The position numbers and the translations under genes were made by a program. Shown piece by piece: positions 3,408-13,503 of a stretch of 30,837 nt of DNA. Source of the DNA: a virus; the IMG/VR virus record IMGVR_UViG_3300007541_000112, positions 1 to 30,837 of that record; one strand, 5' to 3'. Each line of letters starts with the position of its first letter. Within the stretch, counting starts at the first letter, position 1. Below the pieces are notes generated by a model. It did not search any database, was not told where the DNA came from, and was given only the letters and a program-made list of their open reading frames with translations.

Positions 3408-4823
3408 TTAGTAACCTATTGGGTGATCTAATCCAATACCTTCATCATAATCTCCCTGATATACAGGAGTAATTTCCATAAACTGCATGTTCAATCTATA
3501 AGCTACCATTGTTTTATCAGGATCTCTATAAGTCATATATGTTCCTAAAGGAGTATAATCTACAGAAAAATTCGTTAATGCACATGCTTTTGTTGCAAGT
3601 TTTTCTGGAGCAATTAAGTTAATGGATTTATGTGTTTCATCAGTTCCATACTGATAATCTATAAAAAATACATGTGGAGTTTTTAGGAATAAGTTACCTT
3701 TAACATTTCTTACTGCCATGTGATATTTAAAGTATTTAATTATTTTTTTGATCATTTCTACTTCTTTACCTTCTGATCTAGCAGTAAGTAAAAATGAAAA
3801 AGCAAATGGTCTTAATTGAGGAGCATTGAATAATAATTCTAAATTTGGATTAAGAGCTAACGATGTTGCTCTTGTGAAAAGGTTGATATTTCCTGCAGCC
3901 ATTGCTGCCATGGCTGCATTACCAACTGCGCCCAAGTCCTGTAATTCTTTATATATTTCATTTGTGAGTCCTCCTAATGCATCCGTTGCAGCCTTGAATG
4001 CACCACCATTATTTGATAATGCTTTATAAGCCTGATTGAACATTGCCTTTTCTATTGGTCCCATTGTTCCTGGGCCCCAATCAACAGAATTTTGATCACT
4101 TATAGGAGATTGAATTGATAAGTATACTGGACCTGAATTGGTGACTGGTTTATATGTTAATTCTCCACCTATACCTCCTTTATCTTGTATTTCTACGGCA
4201 GTAAATTTTATTCTATCTTGATTTTTATTATTTTCTATATCTAATGGATAATATGCAGGCTTTCCAGATTTAACTGGGGAGTTATTTCCACTACTTGCTG
4301 GTTTAGATGCTATTGCTGCATCAGGTGCTGGTGTTGCATCAGGTTCTGGTTGTGTGGAAGTTTGTGCAGTGCTTTCTGGATCAGTTCCAGATGCAGGTGT
4401 TGGGTTTTGTGCATTTGGGTCTGTTGTTGCTTGATTTTTTGCACTTGCAGCAACTTGTCCCACTTCTTCTGGTTTAAGAGTAGGTTCACTTTCTACTAAA
4501 ACACTTAAACCTGTCGTAGAATCAATAATATTTTTTTGAGTTTCTGTTTTAAGGGATCCAGTTTCTAATGATCTTTGTGCATCAGCACCGAGAATTGGTG
4601 TTCCATCTGTTTTTTTGATATAATTCCAAGTATTTCCTCCATCTGTTGTTACTGCTGCTGGTACATAACCTTCAAATGGAGAAGATGAATAGTATAAAGT
4701 AGTTTCTCCACCAGTTACTTTTCCAGATGGATCTTTGTTTACTTTAGTTTCTGTATAAGTCCATAATTTAGTTCCATTGACACCAACTGAGACTTTGGAT
4801 GCTTTACTTCTATAAACGGACAT
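3408..4823 (-). CDS. gp48: gp48 baseplate tail-tube cap
   Basis: 471 residues against 364 in T4. The C-terminal 200 residues hold the tube-like domain: FNAPQLRPFAFSFLLTARS, then KKIIKYFKYHMA, FLKTPHVFFIDYQYG, CALTNFSVDYTPLGTYMTY and a final LNMQFMEITPVY. This is the pattern of T4 gp48, which caps the hub and begins the tail tube together with gp54. About residues 130-190 form a low-complexity linker rich in Pro, Thr, Ala and Ser, which explains most of the extra length. A helical Ala/Gly segment around residues 290-315 precedes the tube domain. A late promoter lies 17 bases upstream. gp4 is upstream and gp53 directly downstream in the same operon. Confidence 0.85.
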   Translation of the reverse strand: MSVYRSKASKVSVGVNGTKLWTYTETKVNKDPSGKVTGGETTLYYSSSPFEGYVPAAVTTDGGNTWNYIKKTDGTPILGADAQRSLETGSLKTETQKNIIDSTTGLSVLVESEPTLKPEEVGQVAASAKNQATTDPNAQNPTPASGTDPESTAQTSTQPEPDATPAPDAAIASKPASSGNNSPVKSGKPAYYPLDIENNKNQDRIKFTAVEIQDKGGIGGELTYKPVTNSGPVYLSIQSPISDQNSVDWGPGTMGPIEKAMFNQAYKALSNNGGAFKAATDALGGLTNEIYKELQDLGAVGNAAMAAMAAGNINLFTRATSLALNPNLELLFNAPQLRPFAFSFLLTARSEGKEVEMIKKIIKYFKYHMAVRNVKGNLFLKTPHVFFIDYQYGTDETHKSINLIAPEKLATKACALTNFSVDYTPLGTYMTYRDPDKTMVAYRLNMQFMEITPVYQGDYDEGIGLDHPIGY

Positions 4824-4839
4824 TTATAAACTTTTTAGT

Positions 4840-4847
4840 TATTTATA
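4840..4847 (-). promoter_or_regulatory. late promoter for gp48-gp53
   Basis: Minus-strand TATAAATA, the exact T4 late promoter -10 consensus, read by polymerase carrying gp55 and gp33. It sits between the gp4 stop (4851-4853) and the gp48 start (4823). A partial second copy, TTTATAAATG, overlaps the gp48 start region. Confidence 0.7.
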
Positions 4848-4850
4848 AAC

Positions 4851-5297
4851 CTAAAATAAATCTTCTTCCGTTATAATCTTGAATTCTATTCTACGATCTT
4901 CACACCATTCTTGTGCTGCTTTCCACTTCGCAATATTTTTATTATATGTAAGAACTTCGTTGATGTAAGTTTTCTTTTGCTTTCCTTTTGTTTGTTTTGG
5001 CGTAATAGTTTGCTTCTTTGGTTTGACTTCTACCAAATAAGTTTTTATTGCCCCACTACTTTCCTTTATTTTTATAATAAAGTCTGGGAAGTATCTACGC
5101 ACTTTATTTGTGGTGGGATCTAGGTAGGGAATAAAAAATTCTTCGCTACCCCATTCCATAATATTATCATTACGATCGCAGTATCTCATAAACTTGAGTT
5201 CCCAAGAAGAACGATATACAATATTTCTTGAGTCTCCTTTATATTTTTCTGGATGCTGTGGATGAAATCTTCCCTGATGATATTTCTTTTCCCGCAT
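4851..5297 (-). CDS. gp4: gp4 head completion protein (nuclease-like fold)
   Basis: 148 residues; T4 gp4 (also called gp50/gp65) is 150. Family hallmarks are VYRSSWELKFMRYCDRND near residue 30, WGSEEFFIPYLDP, then RRYFPDFIIKI and YLVEVKPKK. The last two give a PD-x(n)-E-V-K catalytic triad of the TnsA/PD-(D/E)XK type. In T4 the protein acts after DNA packaging to complete heads before tail joining, possibly trimming DNA ends. All active-site residues of the fold are present here, so the nuclease may be active. It is first in a three-gene minus-strand operon with gp48 and gp53, under the late promoter at 5322-5329. Confidence 0.88.
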   Translation of the reverse strand: MREKKYHQGRFHPQHPEKYKGDSRNIVYRSSWELKFMRYCDRNDNIMEWGSEEFFIPYLDPTTNKVRRYFPDFIIKIKESSGAIKTYLVEVKPKKQTITPKQTKGKQKKTYINEVLTYNKNIAKWKAAQEWCEDRRIEFKIITEEDLF

Positions 5298-5332: not shown

Positions 5333-6394
5333 ATGGTATTTCAACAGTCTTATGTTAATCCATTTAATTTTGGTGAATCATATATACCTTCTAACCCATC
5401 CAAATTTCCAGTAGCTACTAAAAATGGAGGAACACCAATAACTCCATCTTCGGCAGGAACTCCTGGACAAACTCCAGGATCTTCAGCACCCATTCCATCA
5501 AATACTTCGTCACAATCTCAAGGATCTACAACAAATCCTCCAGCACCAAAAAGAAGAAGTGCTCAACTATCAATAAAATCTAAATTATTGAAACCAGCTA
5601 TGACATCTCATTATGAGTGTCATATAACATGCACAGGGGATGTGAAGAACTGGATGCAACAAAGGGAATTGCCATTTACTCCTGAACTACAAGATTTGCT
5701 AACTCTTTCTTGTTCTGAAGCAACTCTTCCAGGATCTTCGTTATTGACAAGTGACATAAACGATCACTTTACTGGAGTTACTGAAAGATATGCTTATAGA
5801 AGACAGTATGATGATACTTCAGACTTTACATTTTACATTGATGCTCCAACAAATGAGGGAGATAAGGGTTATAAAACTTTATGGTTTTTTGAACAATGGA
5901 TGGCGTATATTGTAAATGAACAATATAACGGATCTCCAAATATTAATGATAATTATTATAACTATTCTGTCAATTTTCCCGATTCTTATAGAAGTGATAT
6001 TTTTATTACAAAATTTGAGAGGGACCACGATTTATCAATACCAGGAAAAACGGGAACTAAAAAATATTTACAATATAGATTTATTAAGGCATTCCCAACT
6101 TCTATAACAAGTATGCCTGTTTCTTATGATCAATCACAATTATTAAAAGTGACTGTATCATTTACTTATCTTCGTTATGTTGTCGAAAGAAAGATTGGAG
6201 TTAGTCAAGGAGAGGCGACTCCTTATGGTTTTAATGGATCTACTGGATCTACTCCAACATTACTTCCAGGATATAATACGGATTTTGTTTCTGGATATGG
6301 AAAGAATCCAGTTGGTGATTTTTATCCACCTTCTAGTGGTACGTTACCTTCTACTCTTCCTGCAGTAAATCAACCAACATCAACCATTGCCTGA
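5333..6394 (+). CDS. gp54: gp54-like baseplate tail-tube initiator
   Basis: 353 residues from ATG 5333 (T4 gp54 is 320). The frame is open further upstream, but that part overlaps divergent gp4, so the first ATG outside gp4 was taken. Residues 25-75 are a Pro/Thr/Ser/Gly linker. From about residue 85 the protein has a tail-tube-like fold: HYECHITCTGDVKNW, LTLSCSEATLPGSSLLT, YAYRRQYDDTSDFTFYID, then FPTSITSMPVSYDQSQLLKV and VSFTYLRYVVER. That last sheet is shared by gp19, gp48 and gp54. In T4, gp54 sits with gp48 on top of the hub and primes tube polymerisation. Position next to gp48 and gp4 supports gp54; a tube paralogue is the alternative. Confidence 0.62.
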   Translation: MVFQQSYVNPFNFGESYIPSNPSKFPVATKNGGTPITPSSAGTPGQTPGSSAPIPSNTSSQSQGSTTNPPAPKRRSAQLSIKSKLLKPAMTSHYECHITCTGDVKNWMQQRELPFTPELQDLLTLSCSEATLPGSSLLTSDINDHFTGVTERYAYRRQYDDTSDFTFYIDAPTNEGDKGYKTLWFFEQWMAYIVNEQYNGSPNINDNYYNYSVNFPDSYRSDIFITKFERDHDLSIPGKTGTKKYLQYRFIKAFPTSITSMPVSYDQSQLLKVTVSFTYLRYVVERKIGVSQGEATPYGFNGSTGSTPTLLPGYNTDFVSGYGKNPVGDFYPPSSGTLPSTLPAVNQPTSTIA

Positions 6395-6428: not shown

Positions 6429-7148
6429 ATGCCTTTACCTAAAATTGTTACTCCAACTTATGAATTGGAACTACCTTCAACTGGACAAACAATCAAGTAT
6501 AGACCATTTCTAGTTAAAGAAGAAAAGGTTCTTGTGCTTGCTATGGAAACAGAAGATAGTAAGCAAATTACAAATGCAGTAAAAACCGTAATTAAAAATT
6601 GTATTGAAACCAAAGGAATTAAAGTAGAATCTCTACCAACATTTGATATTGAATATTTGTTTCTTAACATAAGAGCAAAATCTGTTGGTGAAGAAATCGA
6701 AGTTAATATTATTTGTCCAGATGATGGAGAAACTGAAGTTCCTGTAAAAATAAATGTTGATGATGTTAAAGTTGAAAAAAATGAAAATCACACTAATAAA
6801 ATCAAACTTGATGATAATGTAATGATGGAAATGAAATATCCATCATTAGATCAATTTATTAAAAATAATTTTGATATTTCAAGTAATAATAACATCGACC
6901 AATCTTTTGAATTGATTGCTTCATGCATTGATAAAATCTATACTGAAGATGAAGTTTGGGCATCATCTGATGTAACTAAGAAAGAATTATTGGAATTTTT
7001 GGACCAATTTAATACCAACCAATTCAAAGAAATTGAAGAGTTCTTTAATACTATGCCTAAACTTGTTCATAAATTTGAAGTTACGAATCCTGTTACCAAT
7101 GAAACTAGTCCAGTTACATTAGAGGGACTTGCAAGTTTTTTCGGCTAG
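6429..7148 (+). CDS. gp26: gp26 baseplate hub assembly protein
   Basis: 239 residues; T4 gp26 is 208. The N-terminus has the family pattern PLPKIVTPTYELELPSTG, then IKYRPFLVKEEKVLVLAMET, followed by IEYLFLNIRAKSVGE and an acidic beta segment (ICPDDGETEVPVKINVDD). In T4, gp26 is needed for hub formation but is not found in the finished baseplate, so an assembly or chaperone role is likely. The last codons contain TTTTTTC, a -1 slippery heptamer placed in the correct phase. Slipping there would join gp26 to the 65-residue frame that follows, giving a 306-residue product. This is the arrangement of lambda-type tail chaperones G and GT. A late promoter lies just upstream. Confidence 0.85.
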   Translation: MPLPKIVTPTYELELPSTGQTIKYRPFLVKEEKVLVLAMETEDSKQITNAVKTVIKNCIETKGIKVESLPTFDIEYLFLNIRAKSVGEEIEVNIICPDDGETEVPVKINVDDVKVEKNENHTNKIKLDDNVMMEMKYPSLDQFIKNNFDISSNNNIDQSFELIASCIDKIYTEDEVWASSDVTKKELLEFLDQFNTNQFKEIEEFFNTMPKLVHKFEVTNPVTNETSPVTLEGLASFFG

Positions 7149-7184
7149 GAATGTCTCATATGAGTCTTGAAAATTATCTGAGAC
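7136..7184 (+). other. candidate -1 programmed frameshift site joining gp26 to gp51-like frame
   Basis: Heptamer T TTT TTC (7136-7142) in the gp26 phase, two codons before its TAG. After a -1 slip, decoding continues CGG CTA GGA ATG, entering the downstream frame at 7151 with no stop. A 6-bp stem, GTCTCA (7153-7158) with TGAGAC (7179-7184), begins 10 bases after the heptamer and could stimulate slipping. The stem is weak, so the heptamer and phase are the main evidence. Confidence 0.5.
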
Positions 7185-7348
7185 TAAATTTTTCGTTGAT
7201 GCAGTATCATAAATATTCACTGACTGAAATTGAAAATATGATGCCTTGGGAAAGGGATATTTATGTTATTCTTCTTCAAAATCATTTAGAGGAAGAAGAA
7301 GAAAAAATGAAAGCAAAACGGAAGCAATCATCAAATGGATGGCAATAA
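7151..7348 (+). CDS. gp51: gp51-like small hub assembly protein
   Basis: 65 residues from ATG 7151. A second Met at 7160 is better placed behind AGGA (7147-7150, 9 bases), so free initiation there is also likely. The core is a helical segment with ENMMPWERDIYVILLQNHL, followed by an acidic and then basic charged tail. The Pro-Trp-Glu helix is like the C-terminal parts of tail assembly chaperones. In cyanophage annotation a short gene at this place is usually called gp51 (hub assembly catalyst), although T4 gp51 is 249 residues. It lies in the -1 frame relative to gp26 and may be made partly as a gp26 fusion. Its end overlaps the next gene by 14 bases. Confidence 0.55.
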   Translation: MSHMSLENYLRLNFSLMQYHKYSLTEIENMMPWERDIYVILLQNHLEEEEEKMKAKRKQSSNGWQ

Positions 7349-9894: not shown

Positions 9895-12800
9895 ATGGCA
9901 TTACCAGCAATACTTTCAGGTTTAGGAAAAAATCTAGTATTATCTGCAGCAAAAGGATCTAAAGGATCTTCTTCAAGAAGTGCTTTGGTTAGAAGAGGGG
10001 ATAATGTTGATGATACTAAAGTAGTAAAAAAAGAAAACTATAAAAAGTATTTTGATTCTGGTGAGAAAAAATCTTCTTCAATTATTGTAAGACCATCTAG
10101 TAGTTTAGTTTCAAGGAAATCTGTCAATATAAAATCATTTGGTGGAGACACTGGATTAGTATCCATACAAAATAAAATAGGAAATATTGAAAATGTTTTA
10201 AAAGAATCATCTTTATTTAAAACTAAAAAATCCAACGAACAAAAGAAATTACAAGAACAAAATAAGAGAAAAAAGACTGAAGAAAAGTTAGAAACTCCAG
10301 AAAAAAAGAATGGAATTTCTCTTCCAATCCCAGGAAAAGGATTGTTTGATAATATTATGTCTAGATTATCAAATTTTGTTTTCTGGGTTTTTATTGGAAA
10401 GTTGCTTCCAGCAATTATAGATTTTATTCCAAAAATTGAAGGATTGCTAAAAGTTATTGGAAACATTGGAGACACTATTTTAAACATATTTGGATCTATA
10501 CTTGATAGTATGGTTGGATTTGTTAGTAGTGCATTTAAGGCTTGGGAAGATGTAAAAGAAATTGCTAAAAATATTGGTGGAGAAAATGCTGAAAAATTAC
10601 TGAATGATCTTTCGGCAAATTTTGAAAAGTTTTTGAATCTTGCATTAATTGCAGGAATGTTATCAACAGATATTGGTGATGGTGGGAAACCAGGGAAACC
10701 AGGAACACCTGGAAAACCAGGGAAACCAGGAAGAGTTGGACCAACAACTTCTGGGGGAAGACCATTAGGCAGACCAGATTTAAGGAATCCATTAAGACAA
10801 AGACCCATTATTACCAGAGGTAGAGGTGGATCTCCAAGAATGCCAAGACTTCCTGGATCTGGTCCAAGAATCACTGGTTCTGGTGTTAATCAATCAGTCA
10901 CAAAAGGTGCTTTAAGTAAGGTAGTAAAAAGAATTCCTATAGTTGGTGCATTAATAGATTTTGCTATCAATTATTTTATCTTTAAAGAACCACTTGGAAG
11001 AGCAGCATTTAAAGCAGTTGGATCATCACTAATTGGATTCTTGGGTGGTGCTTTAGGTGCTGTTGCTGGACCACCTGGAGCAATTGCTGGTGGACTTCTG
11101 GGAGGAATGGCTGGAGATGCTTTAGGTGGAATGCTATATGATAAAATTTTTACTGGAAAAAATCCACCAAAAAAATCAATTCAAACAAAATCTAGAGGAG
11201 GTCAAGTTTCTAATTCTGATAGATCTGCTCAACCAAAAAGAACCTTTACTGGACAAAGAACCAGAAGACCCATTATACAAAGACCAAAAAAATCCGAACC
11301 AGGAAAGGATGTTGGTGGTAAGGAAAAGATTAAAATATTATTCCCAGATACGGAATATAAAAGTCCTATGGATTTTGCCAATGGAATTGATGCTGCTGGT
11401 GATCGTCTTGCAGGAACCTGGGAGATGAATAAAAAATTGAATAGACCAAATCCATATAAGGCACTCACCTCTACTGCAAAAATTTTGAAAGACATTCCTG
11501 TTATTGGTGGAATTATGGGTGCATCTGTTGATATTGCACTTGGACAAAAAGTTACTCCAGAAACTTTAAATTCCTTATTTTCAAGTGTAGATTATTTGGT
11601 AAAAACTTCTGCTGATAAAGGAGTATCAAACATAAGATCTATTATTAATGGATTTGATAGGGGTGGAAACATTCCAGGAAGATCTTTGAATGTTGGTGAT
11701 CAAAATTTTAATGCAAATAAATTATCTGATGTTATTAAAGTATCATTTAATCAGAAAATTAATCAAGCAATAAAAGAAATACAAGATAACATTTCAAGGA
11801 GACCATCAACTGGTCGTGATGAAATGCTTCAGGACAATCAACGTCGTGCTGGTGATGGAGGTGGTGGTCCTGCGGTAGAATCTATAAATGTTTCTGGATT
11901 TAGTGCTGAAGATGTTGATGCTTTAGGTAGAATGATCGCTGCAGAGGCTGCAGGAGAAAGTGATTTGGGTAAAGCTGGTGTACTTGCTGTAATTATGAAT
12001 AGGTATCGTTTGATTAAATCTGGTAAAGCAACACCATCTCAATTCAATATAAGTGGAAAAACTAGAGATGAAGTTACAATAAGAGATATTCTTTTTGCGG
12101 GTGGTACTGGCCCTGGAAATCAATTTTCACCATATAAAAATGGCGCATTTCATCGCACAAGTTCATCATCTGGGAAATCTGCATTATCTAGTGCAATACG
12201 TGCTGGAGGAAATGATCCAGAAAAGTTTAAAGAAAATTTAATTAAATCAGGATTAAGTGAACAAGATGCGGATTATGTTGTTCGTTCTGTTGCATTTTCT
12301 AATGCTGAGAGTAGAGGTAGTAGACCATTTTCTACTAGAGAAGTCGCGGTTGGTAGACACTCATTTCAACAATCTGCTGATGTAAAATTAACAGGAAAAA
12401 TTGGAAAGATAGATGCTAGTGTACAAGAATCTAATTACAGTGGAAATTTATCTAGACAATTTTTGGAAAATTTGAACAAACCTTTACCTGGAATTACTTT
12501 ATCTGGTCAAAGATATAGAGCATCTAGAGAGGGCGGAAAAAGAGAGCACGCTGGAAGAGATTACGATCTTTCCGATGATGGTACTTTTTACTCAAGAATT
12601 GGGGGTGAAGTTATATTTGCAGGAGATGCTGGTGGTGGATATGGGAATGTTGTGGACATTTATAATAAGGATTTAAATAGAACGGAAAGAATTGCTGAAG
12701 GAACAACAATTCTTCCTGGAATAAAGGTTGGTTCTACAGTATCTCCAGGACAACCTGTAGTTAAAGGAACTCATCAAACAGGAGTAATACATTACGAAAT

Positions 12801-13503
12801 AAGAAAAGGGAAGGCTGGTGCCTCTGGAAGTGTAAAAGGTACAGAAGATCCTGATGAGTTTTTAAATTCGAATAATTATAAGGACTACATTAAAAAAATA
12901 GAGAAGAAACGAGATATATCATCAGAACCAGTAGTAAGAGATCTTGTATCAGTTCAAAATAAAATAAGAGATATGAAACCTGGAGATCCTCCAGTAACAA
13001 TTCCAGGTGTTGGTAAAGTTGTAATTAAAAAGAATAAACACGGAATTATCATCAAAGAATACTATGATTCTAATAATAGACCAATTGATTCTGGAAAATT
13101 CTTTGATCTAGTTAAAGGACCATCAAAACCATCAACACCTACTGCAGCAAAACCATCAACACCTTTGGGTCCAGCACCACCAGCACCAGTATTACCTCCA
13201 CCACCTTCTTATGCTCAACCTGCAGCAAGGAAAACTCCAAGAGGAAGATGGGGAGCAGCAAATACAAAGTATGGTGGTGGATTAATAGGATCACCAAATC
13301 TAAATAGGTCAAATGTGGGATCATTTGCTTCTTATGAACATCCTGGAGTAAGAACTAATATAATATTTGTTCCAGTTCCAGTAAATAATGGTTCAATGTC
13401 TCCAGCAATAAATAAGTCTACGGGAAATGTTGCTCCAGAAAAATCTTCGCTTAATGGAATGGTTGGAGGAATGAGTAAGATTCATCAATTAAGTAGGTCA
13501 TAA
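9895..13503 (+). CDS. tape-measure-like protein 2 with CwlJ/SleB hydrolase and degenerate M23 domains
   Basis: 1202 residues. Order: charged N-terminus; hydrophobic NFVFWVFIGKLLPAIIDFIP (156-178); a short collagen-like Gly-x-y run (262-281); a Gly/Ala membrane-active-type segment (368-415); a CwlJ/SleB-like wall hydrolase (about 668-826); an M23/LytM-like domain (about 880-985); and a Pro-rich tail. The hydrolase has ALGRMIAAEAAGES with the expected catalytic Glu (E684), then AVIMNRYR and VAVGRHSF. The M23 domain keeps the zinc ligands H885 and D889 (HAGRD) and H966, but the first His of the HxH motif is Val964 (GVIHYEIR), and no second catalytic His is seen. It could open the cell wall during DNA entry, taking over the T4 gp5 lysozyme role. 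The M23 part may be structural only. Confidence 0.65.
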   Translation: MALPAILSGLGKNLVLSAAKGSKGSSSRSALVRRGDNVDDTKVVKKENYKKYFDSGEKKSSSIIVRPSSSLVSRKSVNIKSFGGDTGLVSIQNKIGNIENVLKESSLFKTKKSNEQKKLQEQNKRKKTEEKLETPEKKNGISLPIPGKGLFDNIMSRLSNFVFWVFIGKLLPAIIDFIPKIEGLLKVIGNIGDTILNIFGSILDSMVGFVSSAFKAWEDVKEIAKNIGGENAEKLLNDLSANFEKFLNLALIAGMLSTDIGDGGKPGKPGTPGKPGKPGRVGPTTSGGRPLGRPDLRNPLRQRPIITRGRGGSPRMPRLPGSGPRITGSGVNQSVTKGALSKVVKRIPIVGALIDFAINYFIFKEPLGRAAFKAVGSSLIGFLGGALGAVAGPPGAIAGGLLGGMAGDALGGMLYDKIFTGKNPPKKSIQTKSRGGQVSNSDRSAQPKRTFTGQRTRRPIIQRPKKSEPGKDVGGKEKIKILFPDTEYKSPMDFANGIDAAGDRLAGTWEMNKKLNRPNPYKALTSTAKILKDIPVIGGIMGASVDIALGQKVTPETLNSLFSSVDYLVKTSADKGVSNIRSIINGFDRGGNIPGRSLNVGDQNFNANKLSDVIKVSFNQKINQAIKEIQDNISRRPSTGRDEMLQDNQRRAGDGGGGPAVESINVSGFSAEDVDALGRMIAAEAAGESDLGKAGVLAVIMNRYRLIKSGKATPSQFNISGKTRDEVTIRDILFAGGTGPGNQFSPYKNGAFHRTSSSSGKSALSSAIRAGGNDPEKFKENLIKSGLSEQDADYVVRSVAFSNAESRGSRPFSTREVAVGRHSFQQSADVKLTGKIGKIDASVQESNYSGNLSRQFLENLNKPLPGITLSGQRYRASREGGKREHAGRDYDLSDDGTFYSRIGGEVIFAGDAGGGYGNVVDIYNKDLNRTERIAEGTTILPGIKVGSTVSPGQPVVKGTHQTGVIHYEIRKGKAGASGSVKGTEDPDEFLNSNNYKDYIKKIEKKRDISSEPVVRDLVSVQNKIRDMKPGDPPVTIPGVGKVVIKKNKHGIIIKEYYDSNNRPIDSGKFFDLVKGPSKPSTPTAAKPSTPLGPAPPAPVLPPPPSYAQPAARKTPRGRWGAANTKYGGGLIGSPNLNRSNVGSFASYEHPGVRTNIIFVPVPVNNGSMSPAINKSTGNVAPEKSSLNGMVGGMSKIHQLSRS

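Follow-up and report, generated by a model that had tools for sequence, protein, structure and literature searches.

Comparative evidence for a probable, conserved -1 frameshift at the end of gp26 in T4-like marine phages, with clade-specific RNA structure downstream

In phage lambda, the G and GT proteins are a short and a long tail assembly chaperone made from one start by a -1 slip, at a slippery site reading GGGAAAG and in the tail tube/tape measure position of the genome. For T4-like phages, Vladimirov, Gautam & Davidson 2022 (Virology 566:9-15) reportedly assigned the tail assembly chaperones (TACs), and the abstract of that study is said to describe frameshifting as a conserved trait of several T4-like groups, with T4 genes 26 and 51 encoding TAC-N and TAC-NC separately. 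Later papers, in passages citing the 2022 study, state that some T4-like phages have separate short and long TAC genes and do not use frameshifting (PMC10885494), and that poly-T -1 signals are known in T4-like TAC-N genes (PMC12846349). The initial annotation of the DNA studied here proposed such a frameshift and knew of no report of one in T4-like phages; since the core idea was published in 2022, as these citing passages agree, that claim of novelty fails. The core finding is already known, and the locus described below is a further example of the published arrangement.

The gp26 locus and its slippery heptamer

The stretch analysed, hereafter the window, comprises positions 1-30,837 of IMG/VR record IMGVR_UViG_3300007541_000112 (30,837 nucleotides). 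Its gp26 belongs to PF12322 (259.5 bits, curated cut-off 24.5), matches phrog_150 with an E of 3e-83, and ends with the codons GCA AGT TTT TTC GGC TAG (Table 1). The heptamer at this end lies in canonical phase, with the third base of AGT as X, TTT as XXY and TTC as YYZ, and the first T of the P-site TTT codon stands 9 nt before the stop. Past the slip, the codons of the -1 frame read CGG CTA GGA ATG... and continue without interruption to the TAA that closes this frame, and a tandem -1 slip would yield a fusion of 238 + 68 = 306 residues. The end of gp26 thus has both an in-phase X XXY YYZ heptamer and an open -1 frame beyond it, as the initial annotation had read from the letters for the phase of TTTTTTC near the gp26 stop and for a stop-free product of 306 residues; it was silent on the two ATGs of the -1 frame. 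For the small -1 frame, phrog_634 ("baseplate hub assembly catalyst") was hit with an E of 1.5e-27, and the final columns (242-280) of phrog_150 match it too.

Table 1. Features at and around the gp26 locus of the window
Feature	Position	Strand	Remarks
gp26, proposed short chaperone form (TAC-N) of 239 aa in the zero frame	6429..7148	+	stop TAG 7146-7148; PF12322, phrog_150
Slippery heptamer T TTT TTC, zero-frame phase	7136..7142	+	conserved across relatives
Predicted -1 frame extension (TAC-C), 68 residues after F238; long form 306 aa	7142..7348	+	stop TAA 7346-7348
First in-frame ATG of -1 frame	7151..7153	+	not conserved; annotated "gp51" start in some relatives
Second in-frame ATG of -1 frame	7160..7162	+	within hairpin region
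RNA hairpin region, 3' of slippery site	7153..7184	+	fold, stem and codon-preserving null comparison
Tail tube protein gene, upstream	5333..6394	+	PF23849 Phage_TTP_2 E 3.7e-13; phrog_45 tail tube E 1.4e-30
Downstream gene for a tape-measure-like membrane protein, 851 aa	7335..9890	+	phrog_35029 E 2.5e-36; overlaps -1 frame end
Second tape-measure-like gene, 1202 aa, peptidase-like segments	9895..13503	+	phrog_794 / phrog_973 tape measure E 3.5e-4 / 1.1e-3; Peptidase_M23 E 1.9e-4

The heptamer is not rare in the window, where TTTTTTC occurs 27 times against 24.3 expected and in-phase canonical heptamers number 89 in 9233 codons. Significance from base composition alone was therefore rejected, and the case for frameshifting was built on comparison. 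In the near set (79 IMG/VR relatives and the window; gp26 identity 66-81%), TTTTTTC stands exactly 9 nt before the gp26 stop in 79/79 IMG/VR relatives as well as in the window, and the heptamer is identical in all 82 near relatives, window included. The -1 frame continues for about 180 nt in these relatives, the exceptions being locus L005, in which it closes at 122 nt, and locus L065, in which it closes 44 nt past the gp26 stop. The latter is the sole near relative with so early a closure, which may reflect natural loss or a sequencing or assembly error.

The wider set held 247 loci and reached Melnitz-like phages, Sinorhizobium phiM12, Aeromonas phiAS5, Vibrio nt-1 and Stenotrophomonas YB07; IMG/VR searches with the gp26 of phiAS5 and nt-1 as queries returned only 4 and 2 loci, respectively. 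An in-phase T TTT TT[C/A/T/G] was present near the gp26 stop in 245/247 of them, so that the conserved heptamer in constant -1 phase across gp26/gp51 junctions, which the initial annotation had suggested looking for, was indeed found. The stop is sometimes the next codon after the heptamer (TTT TTT TAA) and in a few loci lies up to 30 nt further on; L202 and L221, in which the zero frame extends about 30 nt past the slippery site, would accordingly have short and long forms that differ in more residues. The two loci without the canonical heptamer belong to the distant relatives Vibrio VAP7 (L087, 2230-2250) and Vibrio K362 (L089, 2160-2185), in both of which the gp26 stop overlaps the ATG of the -1 frame (TAATG). 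VAP7 has GTTTTTC, close to GTTTTT, the signal described in phage Adele.

Codon usage at the site sets it apart from the rest of the gene. Across 183 distinct junctions, the codon pair was TTT-TTC in 142, TTT-TTT in 22, TTT-TTA in 18 and TTT-TTG in 1, with TTC as first codon of a Phe-Phe pair in 0/183, whereas Phe-Phe pairs elsewhere in the same genes (n=193) were written TTC-TTT in 122 cases, TTT-TTT in 53, TTC-TTC in 10 and TTT-TTC in 8. All 78 near relatives use TTT-TTC here, in other clades the second codon is TTT or one for Leu (TTA, TTG), and the codon preceding TTT ends in T in every junction. In other columns the share of the dominant codon averages 0.64, and 1/61 of them reaches 0.99. 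These tallies indicate that the run of T is kept despite amino-acid change and against the codon habit of the family, and thus that heptamer and phase are conserved beyond amino-acid constraint. Taken together, the comparison provides strong evidence that the site at the end of gp26 is real and functional.

RNA structure downstream of the slippery site

The minimum free energy (MFE) fold of the window sequence past the site (-8.6 kcal/mol, z -1.4) includes a 6-bp stem, GTCTCA at 7153-7158 with TGAGAC at 7179-7184, that begins 10 nt after the heptamer, and four more pairs between 7160-7163 and 7174-7177. The initial annotation had offered this stem as a possible stimulator of the slip. It is present and forms part of the MFE fold, and structure in this place is selected (see below), but the stem itself is not conserved: its pairs were formed in 46% of cases in 78 relatives against 47% under a codon-preserving null, and it was rejected as a conserved element.

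In that null, a codon could be swapped between sequences only at the same column and for the same residue. For the 42 nt from stop+2 in 78 sequences of the window clade, the mean MFE was -9.18 kcal/mol compared to -5.89 +/- 0.19 under the null (z -17), and the same test on 44 representatives below 80% nucleotide identity gave z -10. Along gp26, 13 control windows gave z from -3.7 to +1.6; because the permutation null breaks the linkage between columns, mildly negative z values (around -3) are background, and only peaks matter. RNA structure downstream of the site in the window clade is therefore strongly indicated to be selected beyond protein coding. A second excess of structure in this clade (z -10.9) lies at window positions 7223-7264 (stop +77..+118, in the -1 frame), around the codons for ENMMPWERDIYV; it does not suggest a function.

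The best covarying column pair of the region, +10/+17, falls inside a palindrome, GGTCC-ATAT-GGACC, variants of which include GATCC/GGATC and GGTTC/GAACC. Its 5-bp stem is complete in 58% of sequences against 37% under the null (0/500 for paired cells), and in the window it corresponds to 7153-7157/7162-7166 with one U-U mismatch. A single fixed consensus stem for the window clade proved only partly true, as the MFE excess comes from several alternative stems. Elsewhere, the P-SSM2 clade has a stem of 9-11 bp at the same place, for which covariation showed no excess over the null in sequences that are too few and too similar, and P-HM2 has, by eye, a GCCCTC/GAGGGC stem there as well. No structure was found in the Melnitz-like clade, and clades with a stop directly after the heptamer gave z -0.3.

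A rival to the hairpin role only is that the structure hides an internal ATG or ribosome entry, or acts on the mRNA. This would fit the overlap of the hairpin with the ATG at 7160 and its analogues, the lack of structure where the stop adjoins the heptamer, and the fact that P2-type sites work without hairpins (PMC3091744); a spacing of about 7-10 nt from the heptamer is, however, usual for -1 stimulators, and in the P-SSM2 and P-HM2 clades this position is taken by different stems of greater length. We regard this reading as possible though rather doubtful, and the clade-specific structures probably stimulate the slip. A broader proposal, on which our judgement is evenly divided, is that the TAC frameshift of T4-like marine phages is stimulated by hairpins that differ from lineage to lineage, with a 5-bp palindrome around CATATG in the window clade, the 9-11 bp stem in P-SSM2, another in P-HM2 and none where the stop adjoins the heptamer. 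If so, the slippery site would remain constant and the slip rate would be tuned by differing RNA structures that are replaced from clade to clade. A description of these hairpins was not found in the open-access literature searched, and clade-specific RNA structure, for which we found no earlier report, is the main addition of this work to the published arrangement and a testable one.

Entry into the -1 frame

How ribosomes reach the -1 frame can be judged from its start. In 76/183 distinct junctions its first 11 codons hold no ATG, and in 48/183 they hold no ATG, GTG or TTG. Conserved residues of the frame nevertheless lie upstream of those positions, namely L/M at residue 4 in 181/183 and His at residue 6 in 169/183. 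Given that an ATG is missing near the conserved start of the frame in 76/183, entry must come from gp26. Moreover, only 9/183 junctions show a Shine-Dalgarno (SD)-like motif ahead of an internal ATG of the -1 frame, compared to 116/179 for the start of gp26 itself.

The window has ATGs at 7151 and 7160, which makes a separate small protein conceivable in addition. Frameshifting could thus give the long form while the window clade also reinitiates at the ATG at 7160 and releases a free C-terminal part, a combination that we consider unlikely. In keeping with it, the ATG at codon 7 of the -1 frame (CATATG) occurs in most of the 78 near relatives and is rare elsewhere, and in the window it sits in the hairpin. 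Yet locus L002, a member of the window clade, has neither ATG of the -1 frame, an SD-like motif precedes the codon-7 ATG in 8/73, and CATATG is also accounted for by the palindromic stem and by the coded His-Met.

Far less probable is that the small frame is a separate gene, gp51, reached by termination and reinitiation at 7151 or 7160 with no frameshift at all. An ATG does follow the gp26 stop at a distance of 2 nt, in the window and likewise in many near relatives, the annotated relatives that we inspected list the small open reading frame (ORF) as its own gene, none of them joining it to gp26, and the TAATG overlaps of VAP7 and K362 come with the absence of the heptamer. Against this stand the junctions without a start codon, the near absence of SD-like motifs, the conservation of residues upstream of the ATG in the -1 frame, and the freezing of the TTT-TTC codons while other codons vary. 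Annotators also start "gp51" well inside the conserved domain, from an internal ATG, in P-HM2 (L091; 90 nt after gp26), phiAS5 (L086; 40 aa) and Melnitz-1 (L083), so that the conserved N-terminal part of the -1 frame is missing from these entries. Finally, the notion that the heptamer arises incidentally from a conserved Phe-Phe at the gp26 C-terminus in an AT-rich genome, to which the commonness of TTTTTTC in the window and the conservation of the pair might lend some colour, is barely credible and already refuted by the codon and start-codon data, as the codon choice is opposite to the family habit, the run of T stays where the second codon becomes Leu or TTT, and the -1 frame is conserved.

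Frameshifting from gp26 is therefore the reading that we carry forward. "gp51" in these phages is very likely the C-terminal part of a frameshifted chaperone and not a separate gene, and the separate annotations in the relatives inspected should for this reason be joined.

Proposed short and long chaperone forms compared with known systems

Both T4 gp26 (208 aa) and T4 gp51 (249 aa) are PF12322 members, and a single direct comparison of the two gave a BLASTP E of 2e-6. T4 gp51 matches phrog_150 end to end and phrog_634 with its tail, where VFKLL... looks similar on visual inspection to FFRLG...NYLRLNFSLMQYHKYSLTEIENMMPWER in the frameshifted form. By these profile matches, T4 gp51 is a gp26-like body with a tail homologous to the small -1 frame, and from this tail homology together with the paralogy of gp26 and gp51 it follows that T4 encodes short and long forms as two genes. 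Those genes lie at 3803-4429 (minus) and 4480-5229 (plus) of the T4 locus (L090) as divergently oriented paralogues. The initial annotation called the small frame gp51-like, which holds for its homology to the C-terminal part of gp51 and not for gp51 as a whole, since the gp26-like body is lacking; as a complete separate gp51 the small frame, with 65-68 residues that match the T4 gp51 tail only, was rejected. Short and long forms sharing an N-terminus are thus found at the level of sequence, through the -1 site here and through the two paralogues of different length in T4. In T4 itself, gp51 is needed but does not occur in the particle, and gp26 is listed as a hub assembly chaperone whose presence in the hub is disputed (PMC3004832).

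Gene order in the window runs from tail tube through chaperone to the tape-measure-like genes, the tape-measure profile matches being weak; in phiM12, the gene downstream of the chaperone is annotated as having "similarity to phage tape measure proteins". The second tape-measure-like protein has a Peptidase_M23-like segment (residues 884-973) and a cell-wall-hydrolase-like one (687-768), both below curated cut-offs, which suggests a tape measure with cell-wall-cutting domains. The head closure protein encoded at 4851-5297 on the minus strand (gp4-like, phrog_218) has a second match, to PF08722, the TnsA endonuclease domain. The AlphaFold model of gp26 is confident (pLDDT 86.7). A fold search with it in the PDB gave no significant match; 2ob9, the tail assembly chaperone of HK97, ranked 4th (prob 0.25, E 1.0) and YqbN 3klu ranked 32nd (prob 0.20), and with E values of about 1-5 the two are hints only. 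Its named matches among predicted viral structures were mostly other T4-like baseplate hub proteins. Searching the sequences of solved structures, with gp26 and T4 gp51 as queries, yielded no relevant match.

We propose that gp26 of this T4-like marine phage is very probably a TAC gene that gives a short form and a -1 frameshifted long form. Most ribosomes would stop at the TAG at 7146 and release TAC-N (239 aa), and a fraction would shift back one base on T TTT TTC, with tRNA-Phe re-pairing in the P and A sites, and read the -1 frame to 7348 to make TAC-NC (306 aa) with its 68-residue C-terminal part. In the window clade, a short-range RNA hairpin just past the stop probably stimulates this slip. 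If the pair acts like lambda G/GT and P2 E/E+E', the tape measure protein would be coated by the short form and connected to tail tube subunits by the long one; T4 has these two products from separate paralogous genes, 26 for the short and 51 for the long form. What the comparison shows is the phase, the conservation, the homology, the order of the genes and the selected RNA structure, whereas slippage, its efficiency, the chaperone action and the role of the hairpin are inferred. The G/GT-like chaperone pair before tape-measure genes, which the initial annotation put forward, has gained strong support from the constant phase and conserved heptamer in hundreds of relatives. Weighing against it are the two distant relatives that lack the canonical heptamer, the early closure of the -1 frame in L065, the internal ATGs of the window and the fold search with its lack of a significant TAC match. 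The pair would bring genes 26 and 51, classical for hub assembly in T4, under the general G/GT scheme known from long-tailed phages, which accords with the 2022 study.

The closest described system is the T4-like gene 26/51 family (PF12322) of the 2022 study, which, so far as the passages citing it describe, shares gene family and short/long logic with the window. T4 itself differs in that gp51 is the long form fused in one frame and gp26 the short form, encoded by two divergent genes with no frameshift. In P2, T TTT TTG ends the short gene E and a -1 shift leads to E+E' between the tail tube and tape measure genes, as in the window (PMC3091744), but the protein family is unrelated or very distant, the proteins (91/142 aa) are much smaller and there is no downstream hairpin. 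Lambda G/GT resembles the window in its short/long logic and genomic position and differs in its slippery site. In the TAC of Vandenendeviridae and Andersonviridae (phage Adele), a conserved -1 frameshift likewise uses a poly-T signal and a "separate ORF" is really TAC-C, although the signal is GTTTTT and the phage families are different ones (PMC12846349).
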